From a virus, in IMG/VR virus record IMGVR_UViG_3300025131_000391, positions 1 to 25,112 of that record: DNA of 25,112 nt. One strand, written 5' to 3'. The translations under genes were made by a program, and so were the position numbers. The notes below the pieces were generated by a model. The model searched no databases. It worked only from the letters and a program-made list of their open reading frames with translations, and was not told the DNA's origin. Positions within the stretch are counted from its first letter, which is position 1; every line of letters begins with the position of its first letter. Below, one piece after another: positions 1 to 25,112 of the stretch.

Positions 1-1496
1 GGGTTGCTGGTGAATTAGATGTTGATGGATATGCAAATTTCGACAATTCTTTGGGAGTAAAAGTTGATCTTACTGTAGATAATGATGCTAATATAGGCAA
101 TGATATTTATGTACAAGGAAATATAGATACTAATGGAAATATAGGATGTGGCGGGGACATAAATCCTACTGGCAATGTTAATGGCAGTGGTGACGTAAGT
201 GCAGACGGCTATCTTATTGCCAAAGAGGGATTGCTCATAGAGCAAATGTCAGTTCCCCCATTCCAAGAACTGGGAACTTCTTTTTTATATGGTTCTTTAG
301 ATGATGGCATTGTAGAGCTAGCACACTTAGATGAAATTGGGGGTGAAACATTACTAACACAAAATGGAATGGTTGGTCTTAGAGGAGCCGCACAAAATAA
401 TATAGTTTATATTGGTGCTGGTGGATATCCTGCCCCAAATATGTTTGATGGTTATGATATTGGATCACGATTTAATAATTTCACAGATGCTATTAACGCA
501 ATAGAGGGATATGGCTCTGGTGATGAATTTACACTTGTTTGTTTAGACAATAGCACATATACTGAATTTTTAGATATCCCTCAATATATAAATGTCTACG
601 CTCCAAATGCTATTTTATCTACGCCCAATGGAATATTTGGTGTAGACTATGCTGTTAAAATAAACAGTAATTCAAAAATTGTTTTTGGACAAATTAACCC
701 TGGTAATAATGTTGGAGCAGTATTAAGAAATAATTCAGCAAGCTTAACAGATGATGCTATAGTTGAAGTTGACTCAGTAAGACTTCAGGGTCAATCTGTT
801 GGATTTTTAAACTTAGATTCTGGCACTAATGAAGTTTTAAATATTAAGTGTAATAAAATCACTGTTGACAATAATGGATTTGCAATAGGATCATTGATTG
901 TTGGATTGGGTCATACAATAATTGATATAGGATCTATATATTTAAATGGATCAAATTCATATGGTATTGCTCAACTTTCTGGTATAATTAGTGGAAGAGT
1001 AAGTTCTATCGAAGGTGTGGGAAATAACCAGACAGGAGTTTATGTAACTTCTGATTCTGTTAATGTAGATATTAATGAAATTGTTACAGACGTAAGATAT
1101 AATTTACAAGGTGGTGAGTTTCGCTCATTTATAAATAATGCTGAAGGAACAAAAGTAGTTATGTTAGGTGCCGAGGCTTTAGTAACATATGCTGGGCAAT
1201 TAACCCCATATTCTTTTAATACAATACAGGGAAGTGTTTCTTTGTTAGAGGCTGATGGTTATGGGGCCACGTTAGTAGATACGGCATTGGGGAATGTCAC
1301 AATTACGTTGCCTGAAAATGAATCATTAATGAGTGGATCTTCATTAATATTTAAAAAGACAGATATTTCTGCTAATAATATGATTATAGAAGGATATGGA
1401 GGAAGGCAAATAGATGGTGCGGCCAATTTAAGTACAAATATTCAATATACATCATATACTTTAATGAATGATGGTTATGAATGGAATATAATTTAG
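1..1496 (+). CDS. Tail fibre / host-attachment protein, 3' part (5' end outside window)
   Basis: This is the C-terminal part of a fibre protein. The frame is open back to position 3, so the TTG at 51 is an internal codon and not the start; the true start lies upstream of the window. The visible N-terminal part (positions 3-240) is a run of short Asp/Asn/Gly repeats of the type that builds thin trimeric beta stalks. Positions about 400-1150 read as a beta-helix or pectin-lyase-like region with many Asn/Ile/Gly rungs. The last 100 residues fit the tip domain common at fibre C-termini: a stretch rich in TITLP, then FKKTD, IDGAANL and a final DGYEWNII, where many relatives have DG-x-NW. The role, host receptor binding or tail decoration, is inferred from this architecture. 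Five DGY tripeptides are present. The stop overlaps the ribosome binding site of the next gene. I am confident of the fibre class but not of the receptor. Confidence 0.8.
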   Translation, partial: VAGELDVDGYANFDNSLGVKVDLTVDNDANIGNDIYVQGNIDTNGNIGCGGDINPTGNVNGSGDVSADGYLIAKEGLLIEQMSVPPFQELGTSFLYGSLDDGIVELAHLDEIGGETLLTQNGMVGLRGAAQNNIVYIGAGGYPAPNMFDGYDIGSRFNNFTDAINAIEGYGSGDEFTLVCLDNSTYTEFLDIPQYINVYAPNAILSTPNGIFGVDYAVKINSNSKIVFGQINPGNNVGAVLRNNSASLTDDAIVEVDSVRLQGQSVGFLNLDSGTNEVLNIKCNKITVDNNGFAIGSLIVGLGHTIIDIGSIYLNGSNSYGIAQLSGIISGRVSSIEGVGNNQTGVYVTSDSVNVDINEIVTDVRYNLQGGEFRSFINNAEGTKVVMLGAEALVTYAGQLTPYSFNTIQGSVSLLEADGYGATLVDTALGNVTITLPENESLMSGSSLIFKKTDISANNMIIEGYGGRQIDGAANLSTNIQYTSYTLMNDGYEWNII

Positions 1497-1499
1497 GAG
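1495..1499 (+). promoter_or_regulatory. Ribosome binding site deciding the start of the holin-like gene
   Basis: AGGAG overlaps the stop codon of the fibre gene. It lies 6 bases before ATG 1506 but directly abuts TTG 1500, so ATG 1506 is the functional start. Confidence 0.75.
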
Positions 1500-1505
1500 T
1501 TGGAA

Positions 1506-1823: not shown

Positions 1824-1841
1824 AAAAGAGAGGTTAATAAA

Positions 1842-4800
1842 ATGACTAGTCCTTATCCATCAAGATTTAATAGTGATGTGGAAATTCCTAGAATTGATGA
1901 CAATATAACAGAAATCGGCGGAAGCGCAATAAACGGATTAAGAGATGCGGTTTTCGCAATAGAGAGAATCCTTGGTATAAATGTACATGGATCAGCAACT
2001 GATTTGGTTACAAGACTTAATCAGTCGCTTGACGTTAATGGAAATTTAAAAGCTTCAGCAATAACAACGCTTTGGTCTGGTTCTCCAATTGTAAATGCTC
2101 ATGTGGGAAATAATGCTGGAATTGAAGAAGTTAAACTCGATCTTGATTTTGGAACAACACAATTAAAAACTTGGATTGATACTCTCAGAGTTCGTGTTAA
2201 TACTTTATTTCAACAAGTCGCACAAGACATAAGTAATTTGGCCCAACACACAAGTATTCCAAGTAGTTTTGGTAGACATCGCACATCAGATATTGATGGA
2301 TATCTGGCACCATATGATGGTTATAATGCTCAAGGTATTCTTTCAGATATATTTAACAGATTAAATCAACATATTGCTCATGGAATCAATCCAACAACTG
2401 AAATAGGTGCTCACACAGCAGCCTCTATATCTGCCGATGATACAACTTTCTTTAGCGCAAGAGGAAATGATGTACAAGAAGTTTTAGAGTCTCTTGATCA
2501 TTTAGAAATGAGAGAACTTACTAGACATAGGGATAGGCAACATAGCAACGGTATCTTAAATACGCAAGAAACATTTTATAATAATACACAATATGGTGTT
2601 ACTGTTGTAGCGTCAGCAGCCATTGAACTTCAAACAGTTGGATATAAATTTATTAGATATACGGCACCTCCTGTAGGATTTAGTAATATTCAGCGGGATG
2701 ATGTTATTGTTATTTTAAATGGAGCATCTACTTATGTTTTTAAGGTTGATAGAATTGATACTGTTGGCCTATTTGATTTTGTATATATTCAGGGATCTTT
2801 GCCAGCAGATTTAATTGCTGCTGCCACTGTTACTGTTTATAGAAATACAGAAGAAGTATCTTCGCCCTCAGTATTGGCCAATGTTATAAAAGATAGAACT
2901 CTTGGCGCTCCAAAAATTGTAACTCTTGTTCATCCTGGAGCCCCATATGTTGTTGGAAGTGGTTTAAATCCCGGTCTTATTGCAAATGGTTCAGTTGAAA
3001 ATATAAGAATTGATTGGAGTACTGGGACTTATACGTTTGATTTAGAGACAAGATTAGCTGCCATATCAACAGCAGAAGATTGGGCCCCACAGATCATAGT
3101 TAATACTATGAATACAGAATTTGTAGATCAGAATCTTCCTTTAGTTGCTTTTTTATATGAAAATGAGATTGGAATTGCATTAGATGAACCATTACAAGAT
3201 GGATATGTTGGAATTGCAGCGCCAGCATCTAATTCTGCATGGGCTGCGCTGGGATTTTCTGAAGGAGTAACTTGGTATACTCATACAGAAAGAAAAACTT
3301 ATGTTGATGGTTATGAGGGAGTAGGTATGTCGTTGCTAATTGATGAAACAGCAACTTTAGCGCCTGGAGGAGCAACTATAACTTTTGTAACTACAACGCC
3401 TTTATCATTAGGAGTAACTATTGGTAGTCTTGTAAGAGTCGTAAATGGAACAGATGATGGCACATATTTAGTTTCTAGCATTATAAATAATGTTATTACA
3501 GTCATAAATGCTGCAGGGTTTATTGGTAATAGTGCAACAATAAAAGTTTATGCTGATACTTTTTATGATGCTCCCGCAACATCAAGAACTCTTTATGAAA
3601 CATATGTTGATATTTCAAAAACTGACGATACTCTTTATTTTAGAGGAGCTCCAAGAGTACAATACACTGATAATGTCGTTGTTGGCCAAACGCTCGCAGA
3701 TAAAGTGAGCATTATTGCCGTTTCTAGAAATTTTACTAAAAACACTGTAAGAGTTGTTTATGATGTTTCTGAAGACACATTACAATTGGGAGAGCCAGTC
3801 GGAGTTCTCGTAGGCTTATCTCCGGGAACTGAAGGACCAACTGTAGATGTTCCGGCATCTCCAATTGGAAAAATTTTTAGACTTTATGATAATTCAAGAA
3901 CAGCATATATCGAAGTTCAGGTAATAACTCCACTTGGTGCTTTTGATGGTATTTTAGATTGTGATGTGGAAGATAGAATTAGTGAAGAGTTTCATCTTCA
4001 AACAGGAACCGTTCTTTATAATTTAACTACATTTACTAGTTTAACTGATAGTAGACTTTTTGGAACTATTGGAAGAGCAGATGTTAGAACAGATTTTATA
4101 AGAGACTATACTTCTTATCCGTTATCAAGAATAAGAGGAAATGGCATTATATATGGATTTAATGTTGCGCCTCAAGGGTCAACGTCTATTGATGCCTATG
4201 GTGGAGAGATTTTAGTTGATGGGTCTGTTAAGAATGTAGGAACAAAAACTATTAATATCCCAAATGTTGCCGGTGTAGTTACTTATAATTTATTTGTAGA
4301 TAATAATGGAGAATTTAATTTTCTCATTGATAATAGAGAATTTAATTATACTCCTTCGCTTGCAGAAATTATTATAAGCGAAGATAAAACTATGATTGCC
4401 CAAGTTGCCGTAACTGCTGGGTCTATTGACGCAATTACAGATTATAAAAGATTTGTAAATAATTTAGATGATAAGATAGAACTTATTGTTGGAGATGATG
4501 ACACATGTGGGAATTTTGCCACAATAGGGGCAGCAGCTAACTGGATTAATGCAACTTTAGCAAATTTACCAATGGCTAAAACAATAAGAATAAGAGGGGA
4601 TATAACATATAATGTTTCTGATCTTGGGACTACTACATTGCCTAATGGTATAACTCTTGTTGGTGATACAAGATTTGGCTCAAAGATAACTGTCACAAAT
4701 AATACTGCTGGTACTGCCGTATTACTTCCTCAGGACAGTTGTACTATTAAAAATATTGCTTTTGAGGCTGCGGCGGCTCCAAGCGTAACAGACATGTCTA

Positions 4801-6398
4801 ATGGTTTCATTGGAAGTAGTACTGCCGATGTTGATGATTTAAAAATAGAAGGATGTTCTTTTACATATCCTTCACAAAGTGCAGATTTTTTTGGTATTGT
4901 TGTAGACAAATTTTTTGGCTTAAACATAAAAGATTGTAATTTTAAAAATTGTGGAACGGCAATAACAAATAGTTCAACTGCCTCAATTTTTGACATATCA
5001 AATTGTTATTTTGAAGATTGTTTTGATTATGGCATTTTATTAAATTATGTTTCAAATGGAAGCATTCATCATAATCAAATGAGATTTACGACGTTAAATA
5101 CAACTGGCAATGCTATAAAAATTAATTCTGCTTTTAGAATAAATATGACAGATAATATTATTTCATCATTTGTATCAAGTGTTCCACTTGCCACCAGGGT
5201 AATGATTTATATAGATACTGCCAGTGTATTTACTAATATTAAAAACAATATGCTCATAAATACATCAGCCACTAATCAGGGATTCGGGCTTGGAATATTT
5301 TATGGAAATAGTGGCAGTGCCTCTTTTGATCATTATTATGTAGATATTGTAGGCAATAAGTTACAAAATTTTTCAGGTCTTGCTGCGATACAAAAGGGAA
5401 TTAGATTATTAAAAACATCTAAGGCAACAATTAGAGGTAATCATATATTAAATTCTAGAAATGCTATAGATATTGCCGATGCTGATGACGAATGTGCTAG
5501 AATATCTATTATTGATAATGTATTAGAAACTGTAGATAGCGCGGTTAATATATTGCGAGTGAGGAATGCGAGCACATATCTTTTACGAATTATTGGAAAC
5601 CAATTTTACTCATCAGAAGGTGCTCCTGCTGGCCATTTAGTCAGCATAACAGGTTTTGGATATGGAGTAATATCAAATAATATTTTTGATTTTGATGGCG
5701 CAACTAACTTTAGTGCTCTTTATGTCGATATGGCGCAAATGATTATTTCTAATAATTCAATTTGGGGCGCAGATTTTAACAGTGCCGCAAATGCTCCCAT
5801 ACAAGTAGATAGTAATAATTGTAATATTATTAACAATAATATTGTTGGTCCTACAATTACAGCACCAGCAAGTATTGGAACTGGTACTAGATCTGGTGGA
5901 GCTGTTGATGGCTATGCTGGCGCAAATAATGTTGATCTATTTAATAAGGAACAAACATATTATGCCATTCTTCCAGTATCACGAACTATTTTCGGTCCTG
6001 GACTAAATTGGGCACACTTCCTTGCAGGTGTAGGCACAGGTTATGAAAAACCAATTCTTGTTAATGCTGCTGGTGTTGCGGCACAGGTATTAAATATAGA
6101 GTTTACCAATGCTGATATTCCTACTGGCGCAATAATATCAAAAGTAGAAGTAAGTGTGAGTTATGCTGTTGTTGGAGATATATCTGCTGCGCTACATAAG
6201 ACAACTTGGACTGATGCTGGCACAACTGGAGCAACACTCATTTACCCAACTGCTCCTGTTGCAAACATAATTACTCTGGACTTGGGAGCTACTCAAGTTA
6301 TGCAAACAGATGCTATATATACAGTTGTTATTTATCCAGGAGCTGTATTTACAGGTCCAATAACTTTTCGTGGAGCTAGAGTAACATATATACTATAA
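1842..6398 (+). CDS. Large tail fibre / baseplate-attached protein with right-handed beta-helix
   Basis: This 1518-residue protein is probably a tail fibre or side fibre. Residues about 1-260 are mostly helical and begin with a PRIDDNITEIGG segment and an LGINVHGS segment, which look like the virion-attachment part. The middle (about 260-860) is beta-rich and repetitive. From about residue 870 a right-handed parallel beta-helix of pectate-lyase type begins and runs to about 1345, seen as many rungs such as GCSFTY, DCNFKNC, NCYFEDC, NNIISSF and GNQFYSS. Residues about 1365-1518 look like a beta-sandwich tip. Beta-helices of this kind carry polysaccharide binding or depolymerase activity in phage tailspikes; I cannot identify catalytic acids. 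Five DGY tripeptides occur at residues 152, 159, 453, 489 and 1356. A GAGAGG-like ribosome binding site precedes the ATG. The fibre class is well supported; the substrate is unknown. Confidence 0.75.
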   Translation: MTSPYPSRFNSDVEIPRIDDNITEIGGSAINGLRDAVFAIERILGINVHGSATDLVTRLNQSLDVNGNLKASAITTLWSGSPIVNAHVGNNAGIEEVKLDLDFGTTQLKTWIDTLRVRVNTLFQQVAQDISNLAQHTSIPSSFGRHRTSDIDGYLAPYDGYNAQGILSDIFNRLNQHIAHGINPTTEIGAHTAASISADDTTFFSARGNDVQEVLESLDHLEMRELTRHRDRQHSNGILNTQETFYNNTQYGVTVVASAAIELQTVGYKFIRYTAPPVGFSNIQRDDVIVILNGASTYVFKVDRIDTVGLFDFVYIQGSLPADLIAAATVTVYRNTEEVSSPSVLANVIKDRTLGAPKIVTLVHPGAPYVVGSGLNPGLIANGSVENIRIDWSTGTYTFDLETRLAAISTAEDWAPQIIVNTMNTEFVDQNLPLVAFLYENEIGIALDEPLQDGYVGIAAPASNSAWAALGFSEGVTWYTHTERKTYVDGYEGVGMSLLIDETATLAPGGATITFVTTTPLSLGVTIGSLVRVVNGTDDGTYLVSSIINNVITVINAAGFIGNSATIKVYADTFYDAPATSRTLYETYVDISKTDDTLYFRGAPRVQYTDNVVVGQTLADKVSIIAVSRNFTKNTVRVVYDVSEDTLQLGEPVGVLVGLSPGTEGPTVDVPASPIGKIFRLYDNSRTAYIEVQVITPLGAFDGILDCDVEDRISEEFHLQTGTVLYNLTTFTSLTDSRLFGTIGRADVRTDFIRDYTSYPLSRIRGNGIIYGFNVAPQGSTSIDAYGGEILVDGSVKNVGTKTINIPNVAGVVTYNLFVDNNGEFNFLIDNREFNYTPSLAEIIISEDKTMIAQVAVTAGSIDAITDYKRFVNNLDDKIELIVGDDDTCGNFATIGAAANWINATLANLPMAKTIRIRGDITYNVSDLGTTTLPNGITLVGDTRFGSKITVTNNTAGTAVLLPQDSCTIKNIAFEAAAAPSVTDMSNGFIGSSTADVDDLKIEGCSFTYPSQSADFFGIVVDKFFGLNIKDCNFKNCGTAITNSSTASIFDISNCYFEDCFDYGILLNYVSNGSIHHNQMRFTTLNTTGNAIKINSAFRINMTDNIISSFVSSVPLATRVMIYIDTASVFTNIKNNMLINTSATNQGFGLGIFYGNSGSASFDHYYVDIVGNKLQNFSGLAAIQKGIRLLKTSKATIRGNHILNSRNAIDIADADDECARISIIDNVLETVDSAVNILRVRNASTYLLRIIGNQFYSSEGAPAGHLVSITGFGYGVISNNIFDFDGATNFSALYVDMAQMIISNNSIWGADFNSAANAPIQVDSNNCNIINNNIVGPTITAPASIGTGTRSGGAVDGYAGANNVDLFNKEQTYYAILPVSRTIFGPGLNWAHFLAGVGTGYEKPILVNAAGVAAQVLNIEFTNADIPTGAIISKVEVSVSYAVVGDISAALHKTTWTDAGTTGATLIYPTAPVANIITLDLGATQVMQTDAIYTVVIYPGAVFTGPITFRGARVTYIL

Positions 6399-6407
6399 GG
6401 AGAAAAC

Positions 6408-6878
6408 ATGGAAGAAAAGTCGGCTTTTGATCTTTTATCGGAATTATATAATGGACAAAAAGCTTTAAGTACAAGAATGGTTAATTTGGAAGAGGCACTT
6501 TTACTAATACTTAAAGAATTAAGAGAAAAAGAGGATTTGCTTAAAACAATCCCTGAAGAAAAAAGGAAGGAGTCTTTTGTTATGGAAACTCCTCAAGAGA
6601 TGCCAAAAGTAGAAGAGCCTAAGGAAAAAGTTGCTAAGAATATTAGGGTTGTTGGTAAAATTAAAAATGATCAAGACAAGGGACTGGGTGGTGTTGTGGT
6701 CCAAATATATGATATAAGAAATAACATTATTAAAACTACTAAAACAAATAAGGCGGGACAATATTTTAGTTTTCTGCCTCCAGGAAAATATACGGCGCAT
6801 TATATAAACGAAAAACCAAAAATTGACAAAAATATTAATTTTGAAATAGAGTTAAATGACAAAGAGGTTAGAATTTAA
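6408..6878 (+). CDS. Coiled-coil protein with carboxypeptidase-regulatory-like beta domain
   Basis: The 156-residue product has two visible parts. Residues 1-75 are highly charged and helical with heptad-like spacing (SELYNGQKALSTRMVNLEEALLLILK, read in pieces), suggesting an oligomerising coiled coil followed by a Lys/Glu/Pro linker. Residues about 78-156 fit the small beta-sandwich of the carboxypeptidase-regulatory-like (transthyretin-like) fold: VVGKIKND, GLGGVVVQIYD, TKTNKAGQYFSF, LPPGKYTAHY. Such domains appear on phage virion proteins as surface adhesion modules. The gene starts 6 bases after an AAGGAG site, and its stop overlaps the next start by one base (TAATG), implying translational coupling. 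The role as a virion accessory or adhesion protein is inferred from fold and context; I do not recognise a named gene. Confidence 0.55.
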   Translation: MEEKSAFDLLSELYNGQKALSTRMVNLEEALLLILKELREKEDLLKTIPEEKRKESFVMETPQEMPKVEEPKEKVAKNIRVVGKIKNDQDKGLGGVVVQIYDIRNNIIKTTKTNKAGQYFSFLPPGKYTAHYINEKPKIDKNINFEIELNDKEVRI

Positions 6879-7645
6879 TGGTTCAATCAACTTCACATAG
6901 GGTATATACAGATTTATTTGACCTATATAACTTTGTGTCTCAAACAGCAGTTGCTCAAGGTAAGAATCTTTTAATAGATACTTTGAGGGAGCATTTTAGG
7001 CAAGACACAATCTACACATATAGAACGAATGCTTATGGATTTCCTTTAACGCCCAATGTTACAGATTTACCTCCTGATATTCAAGAAGATAGAACGACTA
7101 GGATACATATTGGAGACATCTTTAGAATGGATAAACGTTATTGGCCATCAATAACAATAAGACATTCAAGTGCCAGATATAAACCTGTAAGTTTTAATCA
7201 GAATGACCAAACAACAAAATATCGTGTTGATTTGGTGATGGACGGTTATGGAAATGAGTCTTATGTGAAAGTCCCCACCCATAAGGTTATGGCTGGTGCT
7301 TGGGATCAGACATTTGAGGTAAAAATATCTGCCGAGAGTATTCCTGACAGAGAAGAATTGGCCGATATAGTTTCTGTATTTTTAATTAATGTTGCAAGAG
7401 AAAAATTACATAAGGCTGGATTGTTTATTAAAAGTGTATCTTTGGGGGCTGAATCTGAAGAAAAATACGCCAATGATAATGTTTATATACAGTCTATAAA
7501 TGTTGATTGTTATTCAGAGTGGAGAAGAGAGGCACCAATTAGTAATTTAACAGAAGTCATAAACTTTTGTTTTGAGTATGGCCTTTTTAATGTAGATTTT
7601 GGGTTCAATGGTTCTAGTGTGACTGATCAATTGATATTATCATAA
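6878..7645 (+). CDS. Putative tail terminator / sheath-stabiliser protein (gp15-like position)
   Basis: This 255-residue soluble protein has no membrane segment or signal. It begins with a helical segment (YTDLFDLYNFVSQTAVAQGK) and then becomes mixed alpha/beta, with the conserved-looking pieces DGYGNESYVKVPTH and AGAWDQTFEVKI and a helix carrying DREELADIVSVFL. Size and place, one gene before the tail sheath if the inserted minus-strand gene is ignored, match the T4-type gp15 terminator, which caps the tube and sheath and joins the tail to the head. The identification rests mainly on gene order and size, so another tail-end or neck protein is possible. It is coupled to the previous gene by a TAATG overlap. 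The DGY tripeptide is at residue 122. Confidence 0.45.
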   Translation: MVQSTSHRVYTDLFDLYNFVSQTAVAQGKNLLIDTLREHFRQDTIYTYRTNAYGFPLTPNVTDLPPDIQEDRTTRIHIGDIFRMDKRYWPSITIRHSSARYKPVSFNQNDQTTKYRVDLVMDGYGNESYVKVPTHKVMAGAWDQTFEVKISAESIPDREELADIVSVFLINVAREKLHKAGLFIKSVSLGAESEEKYANDNVYIQSINVDCYSEWRREAPISNLTEVINFCFEYGLFNVDFGFNGSSVTDQLILS

Positions 7646-7654
7646 AAAATATTT

Positions 7655-8143
7655 TTAAGACATATCTGCCCATTCTCTAATGGTTTTACAATTCTTACAA
7701 AGCAAAAAATAATCTTTCAGTTTTTCTGTCAACTTTTCTATAGACAAATGTTGTATTTTACTTATTGGGAAACTTTTTTCCCCATTGTAAAACATGAAAA
7801 CAGGTATTGGGAAAATATATCCACAATCACAACAAGATCCGCCCTTCATTTCAACCAAGGTGTGTAATTTTTCCTCTGCTTTTATTTTCTTAACTTTGTG
7901 TTGACATATTTTACAATAAGAGGCAATCCTATTGTTAATATTATAGAATTCGTCAACTTGTTTAACTTCTTCACATCTTGGGCAATATGATTCATTTTTG
8001 TTAGTTTCTATAATATATTGCCTAGTATTTCTAGATCCTATAGGTGAACATTCGGTACAAAACTTTCTAGAAGTAAGTCTGATAACTTTATTTTTTACTT
8101 TAATTTTTGATGGTATCTTTTTTTTACAATTTAAACATTTCAT
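7655..8143 (-). CDS. HNH-family zinc protein, catalytic residues lost
   Basis: The 162-residue Lys- and Cys-rich product is the only minus-strand gene in the window. Four Cys pairs are visible: C3/C6 with C29/C32, and C54/C57 with C77/C80, the latter looking like the zinc ribbon (CPRCEEVKQVDEFY...YCKIC) found at the front of many phage HNH endonucleases. The C-terminal part (residues 97-158) follows the HNH pattern: GGSCCDCGY, then a beta strand, then LLCKNCKT. Intact relatives have Phe-His-His after the first Cys pair and His right after the second; here these are FMF (116-118) and Lys153. A nuclease function is therefore unlikely, although zinc and DNA binding may remain. No ribosome binding site is seen before the ATG, which sits in AT-rich DNA. 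It points against the late operon between the terminator and sheath genes. Confidence 0.6.
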   Translation of the reverse strand: MKCLNCKKKIPSKIKVKNKVIRLTSRKFCTECSPIGSRNTRQYIIETNKNESYCPRCEEVKQVDEFYNINNRIASYCKICQHKVKKIKAEEKLHTLVEMKGGSCCDCGYIFPIPVFMFYNGEKSFPISKIQHLSIEKLTEKLKDYFLLCKNCKTIREWADMS

Positions 8144-10833: not shown

Positions 10834-10845
10834 GGAGTTTTTTAA

Positions 10846-11217: not shown

Positions 11218-11231
11218 AGGAAATTTCAAAA

Positions 11232-13099: not shown

Positions 13100-13110
13100 G
13101 AGGAGTTACA

Positions 13111-13710
13111 ATGGTATCCTACCCAATAACAGGCTCAACATTAAATTCAAAGATTTCAACTGGATTATCTACACAGATAATTATCAAGGCTGGAACAGAA
13201 ACAGTTGGAGCAATTCAAAACTTAGGAGTGAAGCAAAACAGAGGATTAGTAAGAGTAAAGGAGATCGGGCTTGATGGTGTTTTAGAAATTGCGCCAAATA
13301 AGGCCCCTGAAGTTGACCTTAGTGTTAACAGGATTGTTTTTGATCAACTAAGTGTTTCAGAAGCATTTGCCAGAGGCTTTGTAAATGTTAAATCTCAAAG
13401 AATACCTTTCGAGATTTTAGTAATTGATAGAACTGCTGGTGACGATTCGTTATCTGTAATACATAAGTTTACTAACTGTTGGTTTCAGAGTATAAGTGTT
13501 ACATATAAGGCTGACGATTATATTATTGCTCAAGATGCAACAATATGGGCTGAAGATGTAAGCACAACAAGGAATGCCGAAAACGCCGCACAAGGTGGCG
13601 CTCGTGGCATCAACTATCAAATTGAAGAAAGAGAGCGTAACACGGATAAAGGAAGTTTTCGTGGGACAATGGATGCATCTGGAATTATTGATGCAGCATT
13701 TTCTAACTAA
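13111..13710 (+). CDS. Tail tube protein, paralogue 2
   Basis: This 199-residue protein is homologous to tube gene 1, with the same N-terminus (YPITGS.LN.KI), the same core (RIVFD.LS..EAF.RGF, QRIPF.IL.IDR, GDD.L.V.H) and the same YK.DDY.I segment. The two diverge after about residue 150. It has the strongest ribosome binding site of the region (AGGAGGAG, about 6-7 bases before ATG), consistent with high expression as expected for the main tube subunit, although which paralogue forms the bulk of the tube cannot be told from sequence. It follows the homing endonuclease and precedes the tail chaperone. Confidence 0.7.
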   Translation: MVSYPITGSTLNSKISTGLSTQIIIKAGTETVGAIQNLGVKQNRGLVRVKEIGLDGVLEIAPNKAPEVDLSVNRIVFDQLSVSEAFARGFVNVKSQRIPFEILVIDRTAGDDSLSVIHKFTNCWFQSISVTYKADDYIIAQDATIWAEDVSTTRNAENAAQGGARGINYQIEERERNTDKGSFRGTMDASGIIDAAFSN

Positions 13711-13757: not shown

Positions 13758-13764
13758 AACACAC

Positions 13765-14624: not shown

Positions 14625-14627
14625 TAT

Positions 14628-16616: not shown

Positions 16617-17428
16617 CACCAATCGATCAAAGGACTTTTCCGCCAGCATATACAGATACAATTGCTGGAAGTCAATCATCATCAACCCCAATTGAAAAAC
16701 CTGCAATTCTTAGAAGGTATCCTGGAACACCAGATGGGAAAAGAATACGTCAACTTATTAGATGGAGAATACCCGCTCAAGGATATGTTGATATGTATAT
16801 AAACCCTCAGAGTTTAAAAATTGATGAACGAAAAATTGTCAAACATCAAAGAACAAAAGGCGGTTATGTTGTTCAATATTGGGGAGAAGAGTTAACTAAA
16901 CTTACTATAGATGGTTCAACAGCGGCATCTGGAATTGAGGGAATAAATGTTTTATATGATGTTTATAGAGCAGAGCAAAATGCCTTTCAAAAAGTTGCTC
17001 AGTCAATGGCAGACAGGTTAAAATCTTTTTCTGTTGGCAGTTCTGTTGCCGGAATGGTGGGATCTGCCTCTAAACAACAATTGGGTCAAGCAGTTGGCAC
17101 TGCCGTTAGTGGTTTGTTTGGTGGATCTTCCACACCACCAGTTTTACCAACTCTTGGGTCATTAGCATTGGCTGTTGAATTATATTATCAAGGATGGGTG
17201 TTTAAAGGATTTTTTGAGAATTTTAGTGTAACAGAATCTGTCTCAGATGGTCCTGGACTTTTTAAGTATAATATGTCATTTATTGTAACAGATAAAAGAG
17301 GGACAAGAACTAACACTATGCCTTGGCACAAAATGGCAGGAATTAAAGATGCTAAAACTGGCAAGTATACACATTTTTATAGGTCTAATGGTGACGTTAC
17401 TCCTATGAGTTTTGGAGACGAAAAATAA
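16613..17428 (+). CDS. Baseplate / tube-initiator-like protein
   Basis: This 271-residue protein starts at an ATGA overlap with the tape measure gene (AGGAG seven bases upstream) and ends in a TAATG overlap with the hub gene. Conserved-looking pieces are YVDMYINPQSLKIDERKI, RTKGGYVVQYWGEEL, LTIDGSTAASG and, near the C-terminus, VELYYQGWVFKGFFENF and FKYNMSFIVTDKRG. The two beta-rich halves around a low-complexity Gly/Ser/Ala linker recall tube-fold proteins that seed the tube on the baseplate (the gp48/gp54/gp53 group in T4, or the XkdP-type protein in simpler phages). No LysM motif is visible. Location between tape measure and hub supports a baseplate-centre role; the exact counterpart is uncertain. 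Confidence 0.55.
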   Translation: MTPIDQRTFPPAYTDTIAGSQSSSTPIEKPAILRRYPGTPDGKRIRQLIRWRIPAQGYVDMYINPQSLKIDERKIVKHQRTKGGYVVQYWGEELTKLTIDGSTAASGIEGINVLYDVYRAEQNAFQKVAQSMADRLKSFSVGSSVAGMVGSASKQQLGQAVGTAVSGLFGGSSTPPVLPTLGSLALAVELYYQGWVFKGFFENFSVTESVSDGPGLFKYNMSFIVTDKRGTRTNTMPWHKMAGIKDAKTGKYTHFYRSNGDVTPMSFGDEK

Positions 17429-20400
17429 TGATAATATTATCATCGCAAGCAGATGTAAATTTCGGTGACGGAATGGGTACATTTGGTAAGGTTATGACGG
17501 GATTATTTGATGGTGATCCATCAAATTCCTATCAGGGAGTCCCAGGAAGGAATAAGGCAACAGATTTAGCTTTGGGAGTTTTAAGTAAAATTTCTGGTAA
17601 TACTGGAGAATCTGGCGCAAATTTTGACCCCAATTTTGTAGATTCAGGAAAGCAACTTGTTCCTGGTGGATCAATATCTGGGGGTAAGATCCCGCCATTA
17701 GAAAATGGTAATGTGAGAGAGGTATATAATCAAACTCCTCAGGCCAGTATTTTAATTAAAAAAAGAGCATTTTCTTCTCTTAGTAGTTTATATGTTCCAG
17801 CACTTATGGACCCAGATGAACTTTGGCTTTTCAGAGCAACAAAAAAGTTATTTGCCAGCAAGTGTTCTCAGGTTGCTGATGTCGAACGACTAACAAAGAT
17901 AAGCAAACTTGTAGATCAAGGGGTTAGTACGGCGAGTTTAGTAACAAATCTCGTATCAAGTGTAAGTAATGATTTAATTGGTGATCTAGCAACAAGTAAA
18001 AATGCTGGAGATAAAATTGGTAGTTTTGCATTAGGTTCATTTATTATGGAACAAATTGCCAGGGCAAGATCTCCTGTGAATATTTCTACTTGGTTTCAAG
18101 ATCAAACTCTTCCAGCGATTGAGGAAATAGGATTTGGAACAGGAGTTTTCGAATTAACCAACATAGTTAACTTTTCCACCTCTCTTAACATTGGTGGAGA
18201 TGGGACATTTAATTTATCTATAGAAGATCCTTATAGCACTATGTTTATTACTGAAGGAGATATAGAAACGGCAATAAGAGACACTGTTCTTTCTGGTTTA
18301 ATTAATATCGCCAATAAATCTGCTGGACTTGCATTATCATCTGCTCAATCAGCAGATAATAAATTATCAGAATCTAGAACAAGGAGAAATGTGGGCCAAA
18401 TTTCATTTTCTATGAGTATAGGAAACGAACCGGCTGTTACCGCAACAATTGATACAACCGGATATAATTTAACACCAGATAATTTAGATAATGTAGAATC
18501 TCCACATGAATTATCAAATACTGAAAGGTCATTGTTTAATTCAGCATATAGTAATCTTACAAGTTATGCTAACTTATCGAAAAAAACATTAACAAGTGGC
18601 ACTTTAAGTTTTAATAAACATAAAAAAAATGTTGAGTATGTCAGAAACAATATGCGATTTGCATATCTTGGGAAAAATATTATTCAGCCAATGGACAAGG
18701 TACATATTTTTGTAGATTCTGGGACAAGAAAATCTGGAGAAGAAGTAGACGTTTCTGGAGAAAATAGAAATATTTTAGATTTTGATGGCGCTGTGAATAT
18801 GGCTAGTAGTTTGGGTCCAGATGAAACTGGCATTGATGAAAGTCTTTTAAAAGTTGAGTGGGAATTAAGCGGCAAGCAACTTCCTTTTGCTCAATTTAAA
18901 AAAATTGCTTCTACATATAATAGTGGAATACAAGTTATTTCAGGATTAGTAAAAAGTGTTACTGATTCTTTTAATGAAGGTGGATTAAACACAATAGCCG
19001 TTCAGGGAGTTACAGAGATGGAGTGGTTAAGGTTATCTCAATATAATGCTAAACCATCGTTAGATCAAACTCAGGGAATATTATTTGATCCTCTTACTCC
19101 GTTTGATTTTGAAACAGATGTTGCCACTGGACTTCCCATAGGTAGACCAAGACTTACTCAGGCCAACATTGATAGATTAAGTGGAAAAGCTCAGTTATAT
19201 GCTCACAATGGTCCTTTAACTGGTACGGGAAAAATAGAAGTTGTTGATGATCTAACAAGAGATATAAGAAATATTAATGGAAGTAATATGGCATTAGCAG
19301 ATCATGTTCCTGGGTTAATATATAAATGGAAAGAGGGAATTATTACTGCAACATATAATATGTCAACGGCTAATAAGTTTGACCAATCAAAAACATCTGC
19401 TGAACAATTAAGAAGAGATGTTGGTTTCTTTTGGACAAATACTGCGTTTGACAATATGGATGTTGCTAATATTTTAAGTGTTTTAATAACTGGTCAACCA
19501 TATAATTATATTTCGTTTTTAGATAGTGCTGTTAGAAGTGGAACTTATATTCCTGATGCCACATTAAATGATAGTAGAGATTATTTTAGTGTGTTACAAG
19601 ATGTACAAGGAACAATTAATGATGTACAAGGTAATTTCACGCCATTTAAAAGTTCTACAATAACCAGAAAAGAACTGGCAAAAATGGTTTTAACAAAACA
19701 AAAATTAGGATCACAGGCTGGTGAACTAACCCAACTAAGAAGGGAGTTCGCAAAACTAACTGATAGAAAATACAGTTTTCAATCTCCTTACTCTAAAAAA
19801 GAAGCTAAGCAAAATACTCCCAACAGGGTTGCCGCTGAGTTATCTGGAAACTTAGAAGTAAAAATTAAAAATATAGAAGACAGACTTAAGGTCGCAGAAA
19901 ATGAGTTGGTTGCTTCAAACAATGATAATAGTTTATCCGACAATGTTAGTGTTTATGGAAATGATGTAACATTTAATTATGATAGTAATGTAGATGATAA
20001 AAATCAAGCAAAATTATTTGGAGATAATCTAATTCATGCTACATTAAAGAGAAAAGAGGATGTAATATATAATAGAGATAAAACATATTTTATTGTATCT
20101 GATGAATATGATAAAGATTATGACGTACAAGCATTTTCTTTAGGACTTAAAAAACAAGCTCCAGCAATGTGGGAAAGTAATTGGGAAAAAGTCTATGATC
20201 TATGTAAAAAAGCTGTGGACATATTAAATTTTGAATTTTTTGTAAACACACAAGGACATATAGAATTTAGACCTCCACAATATAATAGAACACCATTAAC
20301 AGTTTTTGAAGCAATTATAAATTATGGACAACAAACTGGTGCTAACCTATTACCAGATTTTTTAAAGAAATTGTTTGATAATAGAGAAGTGTCTTTAATA

Positions 20401-22152
20401 AATCAAGTAATTGAATATGAGTGGAGAATAAGACTAAAGGCATCATTATTAGGAGCCACAAAAGATATCAAGGATGTTCATGAATTGCTAAAAAGTCAGG
20501 GACATGATATACAATTTATCAGTGTTAATAAAAATATTGTTCAAGCTGTAAATAGAGATGTTGCAATTGATCCTGGTAATAAAAAAATACTATTATCAAG
20601 AATTCAAAAAGAGAATGATTCTATATCTAAATCAAATCTTGGTTTGTTTAACCCACAAGCGCAATATAATTTACAAAGTTCAAAGGTTAAAACGATTTTT
20701 TCTTCAGACTCGGCTGATCCCAAGAAAAAACTAAAAGATTTTGGAAATGAAGCCGCATATAAAGAGGCCGTTGGGGAACTTTCAAAAATAACTGGAAAAC
20801 CAACAAATTTATTTGAAGATTTCTCGAAAGTTAAAGTTGGGGTTTCAAGAAGTGGTATTATAACTCCAGCAACAGACATTGCTAAAATAGTTTCAGATAT
20901 TGCTAAATTTGTAAGTCAAAGATCCAACACAATGAGATCTTTGGAAAGAGTTTTACAACAAAGAAGAGATATTGGAGAAATATCATCAACCGGAGGATGG
21001 AATTTTACAACAGGTGGAATAAGGCAGGCGTTAAACAATCCAGATGGTTTATTTGGGAGATTAATAGAAGATAATTCAAGAAATACTTTAGGTCACTTGT
21101 CAAAAGAAAGATTTGTAATTATGGATAAAGATGTTAAAACATCAACCTTTACAGAAGAGGCTCCAAAATTCACAACAGTCAAAGTAACTGGAACTGATCC
21201 GATTGTTGGAGAAGGTAACGGAAATATTGCTGGTGGAGTTCCACTTTATACTGCTTATGGTACTGATTTTGATACTTGGCGTCAATATGGCTGGAGATCA
21301 ACTCAACCATTTGATAGACCTTTCTTTTGGAGTGCTGAGTTACAATGTGCTCCTTATGCAAAAATGTTATTATCAAGAGCAAGAAGAAATATTGTTCATG
21401 GAAGTTTAAAAGTGAGAGGTAATGAATTTTATCAATTAGGAGATGTTGTTTTTTACAATGAAAGACAGTTATTGTTTTATGTAGAAGGTGTTAGCCATAC
21501 TTTTGATTATAATTCTGGCTTATTTGACACAAGCCTTACTTTAAAATATGGTCACCCGCCCGGTGTTTATATTCCATCTCCATTAGATATTATAGGTAAA
21601 AATTTATCAAATAAAACTGGGTCACAGACATCATTTAGAGTTAGGCGAGAAAGAAGCAGAGTTGACAGATTATTGGGTGTTGTTAAGTTTGATTCTGGCA
21701 AGCCAAATGATTTATTAGGTGGAACAAATGGCGCAAGAAATCAAAGTGTATTACAAAGAGCAGCTTCAATTGCACAACAAAGTATTGACCCATCAAAACC
21801 AACAACAAGTCAAAGACTTTATATAATGGGTTTTGGTAGTAGTAGTCAAGATACTCAGATTAATGCTGTAAAAAAATGGTTTTCTTCGCCTCAACAAAAT
21901 CCGCCTCCTTCAATGCCGACAGGAACAGACATAACAGGACCATCAAGTTCTAAATTTGTAGTTGATCCAAAAATGATTAAAACTGAAAAAATTAATCAAA
22001 CTATTGACTTAAGTAAATTATCTGCCTCAGAAAGAGATCTTATTAAACAGGGTATAGTGGCAAATAATGAGTCTTGGCTTTTAGATAAAACGCTAGAGAC
22101 TGTTGTTGAAATAAGACTTAGACCTGTACCAATTAAAGGATGGCAAGACTAA
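17428..22152 (+). CDS. Very large baseplate hub protein
   Basis: The 1574-residue product is probably the central hub (gp27-like role) that links the tube to the spike. Recognisable parts: a Gly/Ser-rich N-terminus; a beta region near residue 410 (RFAYLGKNIIQPMDKVHIFV) as found in hub and VgrG-like proteins; a helical, charged insertion at about 750-835 suggesting a coiled coil (LTQLRREFAKL, KIKNIEDRLKVAENEL); GHIEFRPPQYNRTPL at about residue 950; and a C-terminal hub segment at about 1290-1390 (ARRNIVHGSLKVRGNEFYQLGD and VEGVSHTFDYNSGLFDTSLTLKYGHPPGVYIP, in parts). The last 180 residues are a Ser/Pro/Gln-rich tail. It is several times longer than T4 gp27 (391), so it may combine hub and wedge functions. 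No lysozyme motif was recognised. It is coupled at both ends by TAATG overlaps. Confidence 0.65.
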   Translation: MIILSSQADVNFGDGMGTFGKVMTGLFDGDPSNSYQGVPGRNKATDLALGVLSKISGNTGESGANFDPNFVDSGKQLVPGGSISGGKIPPLENGNVREVYNQTPQASILIKKRAFSSLSSLYVPALMDPDELWLFRATKKLFASKCSQVADVERLTKISKLVDQGVSTASLVTNLVSSVSNDLIGDLATSKNAGDKIGSFALGSFIMEQIARARSPVNISTWFQDQTLPAIEEIGFGTGVFELTNIVNFSTSLNIGGDGTFNLSIEDPYSTMFITEGDIETAIRDTVLSGLINIANKSAGLALSSAQSADNKLSESRTRRNVGQISFSMSIGNEPAVTATIDTTGYNLTPDNLDNVESPHELSNTERSLFNSAYSNLTSYANLSKKTLTSGTLSFNKHKKNVEYVRNNMRFAYLGKNIIQPMDKVHIFVDSGTRKSGEEVDVSGENRNILDFDGAVNMASSLGPDETGIDESLLKVEWELSGKQLPFAQFKKIASTYNSGIQVISGLVKSVTDSFNEGGLNTIAVQGVTEMEWLRLSQYNAKPSLDQTQGILFDPLTPFDFETDVATGLPIGRPRLTQANIDRLSGKAQLYAHNGPLTGTGKIEVVDDLTRDIRNINGSNMALADHVPGLIYKWKEGIITATYNMSTANKFDQSKTSAEQLRRDVGFFWTNTAFDNMDVANILSVLITGQPYNYISFLDSAVRSGTYIPDATLNDSRDYFSVLQDVQGTINDVQGNFTPFKSSTITRKELAKMVLTKQKLGSQAGELTQLRREFAKLTDRKYSFQSPYSKKEAKQNTPNRVAAELSGNLEVKIKNIEDRLKVAENELVASNNDNSLSDNVSVYGNDVTFNYDSNVDDKNQAKLFGDNLIHATLKRKEDVIYNRDKTYFIVSDEYDKDYDVQAFSLGLKKQAPAMWESNWEKVYDLCKKAVDILNFEFFVNTQGHIEFRPPQYNRTPLTVFEAIINYGQQTGANLLPDFLKKLFDNREVSLINQVIEYEWRIRLKASLLGATKDIKDVHELLKSQGHDIQFISVNKNIVQAVNRDVAIDPGNKKILLSRIQKENDSISKSNLGLFNPQAQYNLQSSKVKTIFSSDSADPKKKLKDFGNEAAYKEAVGELSKITGKPTNLFEDFSKVKVGVSRSGIITPATDIAKIVSDIAKFVSQRSNTMRSLERVLQQRRDIGEISSTGGWNFTTGGIRQALNNPDGLFGRLIEDNSRNTLGHLSKERFVIMDKDVKTSTFTEEAPKFTTVKVTGTDPIVGEGNGNIAGGVPLYTAYGTDFDTWRQYGWRSTQPFDRPFFWSAELQCAPYAKMLLSRARRNIVHGSLKVRGNEFYQLGDVVFYNERQLLFYVEGVSHTFDYNSGLFDTSLTLKYGHPPGVYIPSPLDIIGKNLSNKTGSQTSFRVRRERSRVDRLLGVVKFDSGKPNDLLGGTNGARNQSVLQRAASIAQQSIDPSKPTTSQRLYIMGFGSSSQDTQINAVKKWFSSPQQNPPPSMPTGTDITGPSSSKFVVDPKMIKTEKINQTIDLSKLSASERDLIKQGIVANNESWLLDKTLETVVEIRLRPVPIKGWQD

Positions 22153-22154
22153 TG
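22135..22154 (+). promoter_or_regulatory. Ribosome binding site and start choice for the spike gene
   Basis: AAAGGA (22135-22140) abuts ATG 22140, which leaves no spacing, but lies 11 bases before ATG 22152. The latter forms TAATG with the hub stop, the same junction as at 6878 and 17428, so ATG 22152 is preferred. Confidence 0.55.
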
Positions 22155-24359
22155 CATATTGGAAATTATCTTAGATTAGTTGCTGTAACAAGTGTTGATT
22201 ACTCTCAAAATCAAATGGAGACAATTTGGCTTGATGATGGGGAAGATGGACCAACATTATCCATCCCACATCCTTTTGCTGGACTTGGAGAGGGGATTTT
22301 TGTTGGTATTCGTCCTGGTTCAATTGTAGTAGTAGATAGGGCGTCATATGAGAGATATATTCCATTAGCCACTATCCCAATGAGAGCATTCTCTTCTTCT
22401 GATATTGGTGATATTGATGATTTGGGCATTGACTCAATTCCTTATCCTGAAATCGACAGTGGAGAAATTTACATTCAAAGTGTTGAGGGTTCGGGAGTTT
22501 ATTTAGACAATGTTGGAAATGTCCAATTTTTTAATCCTTTTGGAGAGGGCTCTTTTCTTGGCGGTGACAGTTCAAGAGCAACGAGAGTCGGAATAGATGT
22601 TTGTCCTCCCACAAAGTATATCGTTTCAGATTCTGGATTATTAGTAAATGGGCTAGTTAGAAGAGACACCAATCTTGAATCTCAGGAGGAATTTGAGTTA
22701 ATTTCAGATCCATTATTAGATCCTCTTTATGAACAAGTTCTTGAAGAAGTTGGTAGAGATCCTACAAAAAATGTTGCTCTCATGTCGCCAGATCAACAAA
22801 CATCTGCTAAAAATATAAATACCAAGATTTTTAGAAATCCTGGGCTTGTAGAAAGCAGACAATTAATTTTAGAATATGGCAGAGATTGGGCAGTATCAAC
22901 AAAAGCAAATGAACTAAAAAGATTAAAAGAGGGAATTGTTACCAAAAAGAACCCAACTCATAGAAGTGAAAGAAGAAACAATGTTCTTGGGCTATCTTTA
23001 AATAATCCAAATGAACTTATTGAAATAGTTTATGGAACTTTGGTAGACTTTTTTGGAAGTCCACTAGACCTAAATAAGCATGTTTTACCAAGCTTTACAG
23101 CAAAAGAAGAAGAAGAATATTATGATAAGTTAGAGGCAAATGCTCGAAAAACTGTTGCATTTTTAAAAGAAATAAATACAAGAAAGGGTTATTCATATAG
23201 ATCAGATGGGCCAAATGGGTCAATACCTAAAATTTTAAATGGCGCTCCTGATGTTAGTACTGCTGAAAATAACGCAAGAGATAGAAGTAAGTGGAGCATC
23301 TTAGTAGACAAAGAGGGTTTAACAAAATTAAATATTCCGGCCTCATCAGAGACAGGCAATGTCCCGGTATTAGCTCGCGCAGAAAACTCAAGTTCTGTAG
23401 ATGTAGATTCTGATGGAAACGCAAAGAAAACCAAACCCAAAGATACACTAACTGTTAATAGAAATCCTAAAAAATCTCAGGATATTCATTTAGATCAAGT
23501 TGGACCTGGCGGAATAACAGTTTCTGGACAAAAATATAAAAATAGATTAGCTGGTGAAGATGCTGGTTGGATAGAAAATGGTAGTTCTGCAAAAGAGCAA
23601 CCTTCTGAAATACAGGCTGGAATGGCATTTCATGATATTACAAAAACAGCGGCAGATCTTCTTAAAAAAGATGCTAATAGAAATGCTAGTGATGTTTCAG
23701 CAGAATCTCCACCAGCGGTGGCAGAAGATGGAGGCGCGGTAAAAAATTCTATAGATAATGTGAAACCATCTATAACACCTATCTCAGCTCTTAGAGATGA
23801 GGCGGGAAGAATTAATAATTGTCCTAATGCTGGCGGAAGAAGTATACAAGCAAATTTAGATGGGAACCTAGAACTATCAATAGGAGCGAATACAGTAGAC
23901 AGAGTATCATGGATGCTTGATACTGCTGGAGGGATTGTTGCTAGATTAGGAAGAGACAGATATGGAAGAAGTGCTGTTATACAATCAGACGGCTCAGTTT
24001 TTCTTGAAGTTGGTGGTTATGATTATGTTGGTGAAAGTTCATCTGATAAAACCGATACAAGATTTTCTGGAGGAGGTACTTCAAGAAGTTCAGCGTTACC
24101 AAAAGACAAAGCAAGATTTAAAGCTGGTAAGGTTGTTATAAAAATAAAAGGTTCTACTACTACAGGAACTGCTGATCAAACAATTATCATAGACGAATCT
24201 GGAATAACTTTGGATTCATCAAAAAGAATAGATATAAATTCAAAAGGTGATTTAAATCTTCAAAGTAAAGCGGCTATAACAATTGATGCACCAAGAGTAA
24301 AATTTTTCAAAGGTGATATGTCAAGAGAAGTTATTAGATCGCAAAGGCCAATAACATAA
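22152..24359 (+). CDS. Central baseplate spike protein (gp5-like, no visible lysozyme domain)
   Basis: The product is 735 residues from ATG 22152 (739 from ATG 22140). Residues about 1-75 look like an OB-type beta-barrel (NYLRLVAVTSVDYSQN, TLSIPHPFAGLGEGIFVGIRPGS, in parts) as in spikes that sit under the hub. Residues about 180-340 are helical and charged and contain VYGTLVDFFGSPLDLNKHVLP. From about 560 to the end the sequence becomes a repetitive beta structure (NLDGNLELSIGAN, ARLGRDRYGRSAVIQ, DGSVFLEVGG, IIIDESGITLDSSK, GDLNLQSKAAITIDAP), the pattern of a triple-stranded beta-helix needle that punctures the outer membrane or wall. No glycosidase motif was recognised in the insert, unlike T4 gp5. 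The position after the hub supports the assignment. Confidence 0.7.
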   Translation: MHIGNYLRLVAVTSVDYSQNQMETIWLDDGEDGPTLSIPHPFAGLGEGIFVGIRPGSIVVVDRASYERYIPLATIPMRAFSSSDIGDIDDLGIDSIPYPEIDSGEIYIQSVEGSGVYLDNVGNVQFFNPFGEGSFLGGDSSRATRVGIDVCPPTKYIVSDSGLLVNGLVRRDTNLESQEEFELISDPLLDPLYEQVLEEVGRDPTKNVALMSPDQQTSAKNINTKIFRNPGLVESRQLILEYGRDWAVSTKANELKRLKEGIVTKKNPTHRSERRNNVLGLSLNNPNELIEIVYGTLVDFFGSPLDLNKHVLPSFTAKEEEEYYDKLEANARKTVAFLKEINTRKGYSYRSDGPNGSIPKILNGAPDVSTAENNARDRSKWSILVDKEGLTKLNIPASSETGNVPVLARAENSSSVDVDSDGNAKKTKPKDTLTVNRNPKKSQDIHLDQVGPGGITVSGQKYKNRLAGEDAGWIENGSSAKEQPSEIQAGMAFHDITKTAADLLKKDANRNASDVSAESPPAVAEDGGAVKNSIDNVKPSITPISALRDEAGRINNCPNAGGRSIQANLDGNLELSIGANTVDRVSWMLDTAGGIVARLGRDRYGRSAVIQSDGSVFLEVGGYDYVGESSSDKTDTRFSGGGTSRSSALPKDKARFKAGKVVIKIKGSTTTGTADQTIIIDESGITLDSSKRIDINSKGDLNLQSKAAITIDAPRVKFFKGDMSREVIRSQRPIT

Positions 24360-24368
24360 GGAGAAAGA

Positions 24369-25112
24369 ATGGTTTTAACACCACACAAAGACTTACAAAA
24401 TCCAAAAAAAGATGAAAGAAAAACTTATAATCAATGGGTGAATAGCACTAAGTGTAAATTTCCGGGAGGAGGAACTCTCCAAGGAACTCCTCCCCCAGAT
24501 ATGGCAAACTTAGGTGATATTATTGCTGATTTACAAAGGCAGTTAAACATGTTTACTTCTATGTATGCTGTAGTTGTAGCCATAATTCAAGTTATAATGT
24601 GTATTATTGAAGTAATATGTTCATTAACTAATCCTTTTGCGCTAGTTAAATCTATAATTAAACTATTTGGTGTGTGTATTCCAGAATTACTTTTGGTGAT
24701 TCCGCAACTAGCAGTTTTAGCATATATAATTTGTATGATAAAAATTATTACTGCTATTGTCACTTACATTTTAACTGTAATAGTTCCTTTAATTGCAAAT
24801 ATAATTACAAACATCGTTAATTTAAAAGAAGCAATTGTGGATGGCGATACTGATTCTTTAGCAGCGGTTGCCTTTAAGATAACATCTCTTATCAAAGAAC
24901 TTCTTAATTTGCTGGGTGTTTTAGCCCCGTTAGAAGCAATAATTGAAATAATTAAAGCACTTCTTGGCATGGCTGTAAGTTGGCCTCCTTGTGATGATGA
25001 TGATCCCTGTTGCGAAACATCTGTTTGTCCAGATGTTTTAAAAAATTATTATCTTGATGGGTATGATGGCGTATTAAAAACATATCTTTCTGGAGGGAGT
25101 TCATATGAAACA
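24369..25112 (+). CDS. Hydrophobic, Cys-containing protein after the spike, 5' part (continues past window)
   Basis: The frame is open from ATG 24369 (AAGGAG five bases upstream, ten bases after the spike stop) to the window end, giving 248 residues. Residues 1-60 are polar with a Gly/Pro-rich patch (FPGGGTLQGTPPPDM). Residues about 62-150 are almost continuously hydrophobic (AVVVAIIQVIMCIIEVI, LLLVIPQLAVLAYIICMIKII, ILTVIVPLIANIITNIV), and a second hydrophobic stretch covers about 171-204. Then comes a Cys/Asp cluster with C208, DDDD, C214, C215 and C220, and a DGY at residue 230. Multiple membrane segments or membrane-active helices are likely. Tight linkage to the spike suggests a baseplate component or a protein delivered into the host envelope. 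I do not recognise the family, and the C-terminus is not visible. Confidence 0.6.
   Translation, partial: MVLTPHKDLQNPKKDERKTYNQWVNSTKCKFPGGGTLQGTPPPDMANLGDIIADLQRQLNMFTSMYAVVVAIIQVIMCIIEVICSLTNPFALVKSIIKLFGVCIPELLLVIPQLAVLAYIICMIKIITAIVTYILTVIVPLIANIITNIVNLKEAIVDGDTDSLAAVAFKITSLIKELLNLLGVLAPLEAIIEIIKALLGMAVSWPPCDDDDPCCETSVCPDVLKNYYLDGYDGVLKTYLSGGSSYET

Follow-up and report, generated by a model that had tools for sequence, protein, structure and literature searches.

To our knowledge, glycosylation of phage virions is known from few cases. In mycobacteriophages, phage-encoded glycosyltransferases are said to modify the phages' own virion proteins (Freeman et al. 2023, via PMC12619734), with capsid and tail-tube subunits, at their C-termini, as the reported targets. 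General protein O-glycosylation in Bacteroidetes follows the motif D(S/T)(A/I/L/V/M/T/S/C/G/F) (PMC8698959), and bacterial S-layer proteins, e.g. SpaA of Paenibacillus alvei, are O-glycosylated on Tyr at 2–4 sites per subunit (PMC2943079). The literature that we searched contained no phage paper on a 'DGY motif', none on Tyr O-glycosylation of phage virions and no sequon for phage virion glycosylation; the combination of a Tyr-linked glycan, an Asp-first tripeptide and virion glycosylation appears to be undescribed in it.

Here we show that the tripeptide Asp-Gly-Tyr (DGY) is a protein-level short linear motif kept by a jumbo-phage clade on the exterior of the contractile tail: fibres, the baseplate periphery, the outer domains of the sheath and a terminator-like protein have it, and the tube, tape measure, hub, spike and major capsid proteins do not. 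In the most likely reading, to which we give about even odds, DGY is the acceptor sequon at which enzymes of the phage would O-glycosylate Tyr on the outside of the tail, the chemistry being the candidate part of this reading. Such a system would resemble the one reported for mycobacteriophages in using phage-encoded glycosyltransferases on the phage's own virion proteins and in a coat-like function, but the DGY sites lie in internal loops of sheath, fibres and baseplate, and the tube and major capsid proteins here have none. With the Bacteroidetes sequon it would share a length of three residues, Asp in first place and many unrelated surface proteins as targets, whereas the acceptor there is Ser/Thr at position 2, in cells, and here Tyr at position 3, after a strict Gly, in a virus. 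The S-layer proteins are alike in forming a repetitive surface array with few sites per subunit and variable sequence around the sites; in contrast, no shared tripeptide has been reported for them and a co-secretional oligosaccharyltransferase has been proposed, while the enzyme proposed here is a cytosolic GT4.

The window, i.e. the whole stretch of DNA analysed, is a linear virus fragment of 25,112 bases (IMG/VR record IMGVR_UViG_3300025131_000391). A sequence-only reading had claimed 15 DGY in it, all in five proteins of about 3,370 residues in which about one would be expected, and none in the roughly 4,900 residues of the others. All 15 were found where it had placed them, in frame and in exactly the five ORFs it had named, which total 3,368 aa (0.77 DGY expected by per-protein composition), and the other 4,855 aa have zero. 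The features are listed below, the DGY sites being read from the sequence unless a structure model or a homologue is named.

3–1496, + strand: fibre 1 (497 aa, 5 DGY; 5' end off the contig)
24–32, + strand: DGY site 1 of fibre 1 (VDGYA)
204–212, + strand: DGY site 2 of fibre 1
447–455, + strand: DGY site 3 of fibre 1
1254–1262, + strand: DGY site 4 of fibre 1
1470–1478, + strand: DGY site 5 of fibre 1 (NDGYEW)
1842–6398, + strand: fibre 2 (1518 aa, 5 DGY; weak right-handed beta-helix match)
2295–2303, + strand: DGY site of fibre 2
2316–2324, + strand: DGY site of fibre 2
3198–3206, + strand: DGY site of fibre 2
3306–3314, + strand: DGY site of fibre 2
5907–5915, + strand: DGY site of fibre 2
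6878–7645, + strand: terminator-like protein (255 aa, 1 DGY)
7241–7249, + strand: DGY site of the terminator-like protein
8281–10833, + strand: contractile tail sheath (850 aa; its three DGY are at residues 71, 150 and 213; PHROG 2839, Foldseek, 78 homologues)
8491–8499, + strand: DGY site at sheath residue 71, a loop in the structure model
8728–8736, + strand: DGY site at sheath residue 150, a turn into a strand in the structure model
8917–8925, + strand: DGY site at sheath residue 213, a loop in the structure model
11675–12337, + strand: tail tube paralogue 1 (PHROG 985; no DGY, inner-tail control)
13111–13710, + strand: tail tube paralogue 2 (PHROG 985; no DGY, inner-tail control)
14628–16616, + strand: tape-measure-position protein (no DGY, homologues included)
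17428–22152, + strand: hub-position protein (1574 aa; no DGY, homologues included)
22140–24359, + strand: spike-position protein (739 aa; no DGY, homologues included)
24369–25112, + strand: baseplate-region protein (1 DGY; N-terminal half hydrophobic, 3' end off the contig)
25056–25064, + strand: DGY site of the baseplate-region protein, conserved in L007 (NYYLDGYDGVLKT)

By per-protein composition 1.32 DGY are expected in the whole window, against the 15 observed. Of the 3,887 tripeptides that occur there, DGY is the most over-represented (Poisson P=1.5e-11, against 2e-4 for the runner-up), and the shuffling check that had been suggested gave at most 7 DGY in 3,000 per-protein shuffles. The DG and GY dipeptides are barely enriched once DGY is set aside. 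The excess in the window is not local chance.

The gene order is sheath, two tube paralogues, then chaperone-, tape-measure-, hub- and spike-position proteins. Most window proteins had no match in protein-family searches, and names other than those of the sheath, tube and endonucleases are based mainly on gene position. The sheath is identified by PHROG 2839 and by Foldseek matches to the sheaths of phi812, T4 and phiKZ. The C-terminal 73 aa of fibre 1 match a phage protein annotated as baseplate wedge. The exterior location of the five carriers is supported; the ORF at 24369, which the contig end cuts, is placed by position and by its relatives. Two endonuclease genes interrupt the block: an HNH endonuclease gene (7655–8143, - strand) between the terminator-like gene and the sheath, found at the same place in L001, L003 and G004, and a homing-type endonuclease gene (12338–13099) between the two tube paralogues, with similar genes nearby in relatives.

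Relatives were drawn from IMG/VR by sheath alignments, which gave 27 loci and then 80 kept of 282 matching. They include contigs of 266–459 kb, and therefore the window is most likely a piece of a jumbo phage genome. Searches with the sheath or terminator found no close relative of the clade among named phages, tblastn of hub, fibre 2 and terminator against named phages gave no matches, and neither did single-sequence scans of IMG/VR with the hub and with fibre 2. Homologues of fibre 2 hold 4–6 DGY each and those of the baseplate-region protein 0–3, while the terminator-like protein has one DGY in 7 of 7 homologues, with DSY in L003 at the place aligned with the DGY of the window. Fibre 1 has no relatives in the seven relative genomes compared, yet holds five DGY.

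Four relatives of 266–340 kb were compared genome-wide, with genes called by a simple longest-ORF rule, so that the expected counts include some spurious ORFs. G004 (340 kb; tail region about 0.56 G+C) has 103 DGY vs 14.3 expected (log10 P -51, first among the tripeptides tested), G005 has 61 vs 13.4, G010 60 vs 14.7 and G008 47 vs 12.2. The outer tail, fibre and baseplate blocks of these genomes hold 234 DGY vs 15.5 expected, an enrichment whose size is partly by construction, the blocks having been drawn around runs of DGY-carrying structural genes. The caveat spares the lineage-wide excess, the gene-by-gene homology to the outer and inner tail of the window, and the absence of DGY from the inner-tail homologues (tube, chaperones, tape measure, hub and spike), which have 0 vs 1.7 expected. 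The major capsid protein (PHROG 2522) has none. Equal DGY frequency in non-virion proteins had been named as a refuting outcome; the remainder of the four genomes is at chance, with 37 DGY vs 37.4 expected.

The sheath allowed site turnover to be followed. In 78 distinct sheaths, 0, 1, 2, 3 and 4 DGY occur in 3, 3, 15, 52 and 5 proteins, respectively (mean 2.68 vs 0.15 expected), and the sites are spread over 16 alignment columns. Since these sequences are not independent, the turnover argument is carried by changes on a tree, on which 72 sheaths require at least 29 changes among 25 different DGY site sets. The possibility that the tripeptides are simply fold-fixed turns in all homologues did not survive this comparison, and the number per protein is selected in the sheath while the positions drift. 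Because the number is kept while the place is not, sheath DGY is read from these alignments as a short linear motif selected for number, rather than as one fold-determined turn. Nor are the sites recent insertions, as alignment with homologues might have revealed; they align to ordinary positions. All but one of the 209 sheath DGY precede window residue 520, outside the conserved C-terminal core, and the C-terminal third is avoided. In the AlphaFold model of the sheath (pLDDT 77) the sites are in loops or turns, exposure being judged from domain logic and secondary structure rather than from computed accessibility. DGY is confined to one accessible compartment, the outer tail, in loops and with the C-terminal core spared, which supports the earlier suggestion of an exterior docking or Tyr-modification site. 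The tail protein adjacent to the glycosyltransferase gene described below has 43 DGY columns in 52 homologues, some of them common to up to 40. A sheath subclade (L017, L212 and L228) has no DGY.

The motif is strict. When one position at a time was varied over whole genomes, only DGY was consistently high (3.8–7.2x of expectation); NGY reached 1.0–1.6x, EGY 0.5–0.8x and DGF 0.9–1.2x, and DAY 1.7–2.2x in two genomes and 0.4–0.8x in the other two. Spaced and most permuted forms were at about 1x, with GYD up to 1.8x in two genomes. Tyr is thus distinguished from Phe, DGF being at chance genome-wide while DGY is enriched; the sheaths are rich in DGF (85 vs 19 expected), apparently through one conserved site near residue 57. 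The flanks have no consensus except that Pro is nearly missing at +1 (1 of 234), and some proteins of relatives hold DGY runs such as GDGYGPDGYRDGYDGYAPADGY. DGY thus recurs as an exact tripeptide, much more often than composition predicts, in many proteins that are not homologous, as a short linear motif under selection should. All four Gly codons are used in the window, as had been claimed, and the Tyr codon is always TAT, which is 93% of all Tyr codons there. The DGY codons broadly match each genome's own usage from 0.34 to 0.56 G+C.

A GT4-type glycosyltransferase (GT) gene follows the last DGY-rich tail genes, directly or past a few small genes, in G004, G005, G010, G008 and G012. Alignments with this GT gave 69 IMG/VR loci at 31–100% identity, and both DGY-rich tail protein families lie upstream of it in 56 of the 57 full-length loci; the clade has a phage-encoded glycosyltransferase linked to virion genes. 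One gene order recurs: tail A, tail B, GT4, GT2, a protein whose start looks membrane-like, GT2, a dTDP-glucose 4,6-dehydratase-like protein, an FtsZ/TubZ-like protein and a helicase. Other members have long variable sugar cassettes, with matches to GDP-mannose dehydratase and DegT aminotransferase in G004 and, by eye, further sugar genes in G005. No oligosaccharyltransferase of the S-layer type was found among the few cassette proteins scanned. When contigs were sampled by sheath, 16 of 22 had the GT gene. The six without it stop no more than 32 kb beyond the sheath, while the gene, by the coordinates of the loci, usually lies about 29–41 kb beyond it; every contig that clearly extends to this place was found to have the gene. 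The window ends before that point, and that its phage has the gene is carried over from the relatives.

The enzyme is assigned to family GT4 by its sequence profile, a model (pLDDT 94) that matches GT4 structures and has the GT-B fold, and the retained E-x7-E pair of retaining GT4 enzymes. It shares these traits with glycogen synthase, PimA, PglA and BshA, although most profile matches to the solved structures cover only the C-terminal donor half. Among GT relatives in bacterial genomes none lies beside DGY-rich genes, except in a 3.1-kb contig (L263) of a Thioploca MAG, which is a piece of a clade phage with a 452-aa fragment holding 10 DGY followed by GT4, a hint at a host. L263 also has a gene that looks similar to one in G010, where the DGY-rich tail gene and GT4 are separated by a gene for a 2H phosphoesterase that resembles the anti-CBASS protein Acb1, with a score below the curated cut-off (L103:18355-18963). 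In about 35 of the 57 loci the FtsZ/TubZ-like tubulin gene is found in conserved synteny on the downstream side of the putative glycosylation cassette (L140:14843-16435, G004:300288). A gene resembling, by eye, a cysteine desulfurase is found in three genomes (G010:224225, G008:94051 and G004:122052), in two of them within the tail block.

Phages outside the clade were used as controls. The structural-gene stretches of T4, phiKZ, P-SSM2, SPO1, Tunturi_5, phage G and LE2-3 hold 38 DGY vs 20.4 expected in total, and those of T4 (10 vs 2.8) and phiKZ (8 vs 2.4) are mildly high. Since these two are enriched without the GT of the clade, some background turn preference exists. Phages with capsid proteins 34–52% identical to that of the clade lack its DGY enrichment, the whole genomes with related capsid proteins having 34 DGY against 21.2 expected (phage G), 4 against 5.8 (Rctr197k) and 21 against 18.3 (LR745208). 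Bacillus phage G is related through its major capsid protein (52% identical to that of G004) and the C-terminal core of its sheath, but has no GT homologue and no comparable DGY enrichment. The GT was absent from six outgroup genomes at a sensitivity that found it in the clade. Common ancestry and gene order tie the GT to the motif, so that their association is not independent evidence; descent alone may account for it, and no case was found in which the two had moved together horizontally. A DGY-poor subclade lacking the GT would have served as a contrast, but none was found: the L017 genome, whose sheath lacks DGY, keeps the GT start at its contig end, which means that a phage with the GT need not have DGY in every protein.

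Enzymes of the GT4 class draw on the nucleotide sugars of the cytosol, the compartment in which phage tails are also put together. They usually act on lipids, sugars or small molecules, which counts against a protein acceptor. We infer a cytosolic enzyme acting on DGY because Asp and Tyr are strictly required and recognition is context-free, and the enzyme would be the neighbouring GT4, since this is the fixed neighbour and its class draws on cytosolic nucleotide sugars. As the virion assembles, the phage GT4 would place the first sugar on the Tyr hydroxyl in exposed DGY loops. The GT2 enzymes encoded next to it would extend this sugar with dTDP-, GDP- or similar deoxysugars, which the variable sugar genes in that cassette would supply. 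The resulting glycan coat might shield the tail, tune adsorption or resist host factors. The sugar cassette could instead serve to modify DNA or host surface glycans. More tentatively, and at somewhat less than even chance, we propose a clade-wide viral code in which one GT4 without a known protein-modifying relative reads a strict Tyr-centred tripeptide and glycosylates nearly every exterior tail protein, the sites per sheath subunit being selected at about three.

The main rival to Tyr glycosylation is docking, in which a single partner encoded by the phage (a whisker, decoration protein or assembly chaperone) would coat the tail exterior by binding to exposed DGY loops. Contractile tails decorated with whiskers are known from phage CBB (PMC5259590), and docking would explain the strict specificity, the exterior-only location, the conserved number per sheath (three in 52 of 78) and the turnover of sites. 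We consider it unlikely, as three residues are little epitope for some 30 unrelated proteins, the missing Pro at +1 is the only flanking preference, and no candidate partner was identified while a glycosyltransferase adjoins the genes. Phosphorylation, nucleotidylation, hydroxylation, cross-linking or sulfation of Tyr or Asp is less probable again: the near-absolute requirement for both residues suits any enzyme acting on either, so that this alternative draws on the same motif evidence as glycosylation, but in a non-exhaustive search no gene for a kinase, nucleotidyltransferase or oxygenase was seen as a constant neighbour of the tail genes; the neighbours that are constant encode GT4, GT2 and a sugar dehydratase.

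That DGY is only a sequence of beta-turns or calcium loops, fold-determined or favoured, of a kind often met in beta-rich fibre proteins is largely refuted, and we regard it as improbable. The loops and turns of the sheath model and the mild enrichment in T4 and phiKZ fit it, as do some sites of the distal tail protein, which are dockerin-like EF-hand loops. However, the turn synonyms NGY and DGF are not enriched genome-wide, so that the beta-turn preference offered by the sequence-only reading fails as a whole explanation; sites turn over with their number kept; and related phages with the same kinds of protein lack the DGY enrichment of the clade. Dockerin or EF-hand calcium loops were rejected as an explanation since the context D-x-[DNS]-x-D-G-Y fits only a small fraction of sites (3 of 271 in the four genomes; 22 of 313 in the distal tail protein). 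Selection on GAYGGNTAY in DNA or RNA, e.g. for packaging, recombination or regulation, is scarcely credible. The 9-mer GATGGTTAT does occur seven times in the window, but every site is in a protein frame, GAYGGNTAY is absent from the other frames and the opposite strand, as the claim of protein-level selection predicted, and the codons shift with genome G+C from 0.34 to 0.56, broadly tracking background; a DNA-level motif was rejected on this evidence of frame, strand and codon.

If the glycosylation reading is true, glycosylated phage proteins could be predicted from sequence by a three-residue rule across many uncultured jumbo phages, DGY would provide a new minimal tag by which Tyr could be glycosylated in the cytoplasm, and the sugar-synthesis cassettes beside the tail genes of the clade would be accounted for. 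Even if the chemistry is wrong, so sharp a virion-exterior code was not to be expected in a viral lineage, and it can be tested directly.

Other tripeptides were also conspicuous in these genomes. HRT/HRE, GPA and WYK/WYL are strongly over-represented genome-wide in G005 and G010, apparently owing to a multi-copy protein family with an H-R-x-D-G-P-A repeat. In Bacillus phage G (L295-L319), CPI and PIC occur 35 times each vs 2.8 expected, which suggests a Cys-Pro-Ile repeat protein.
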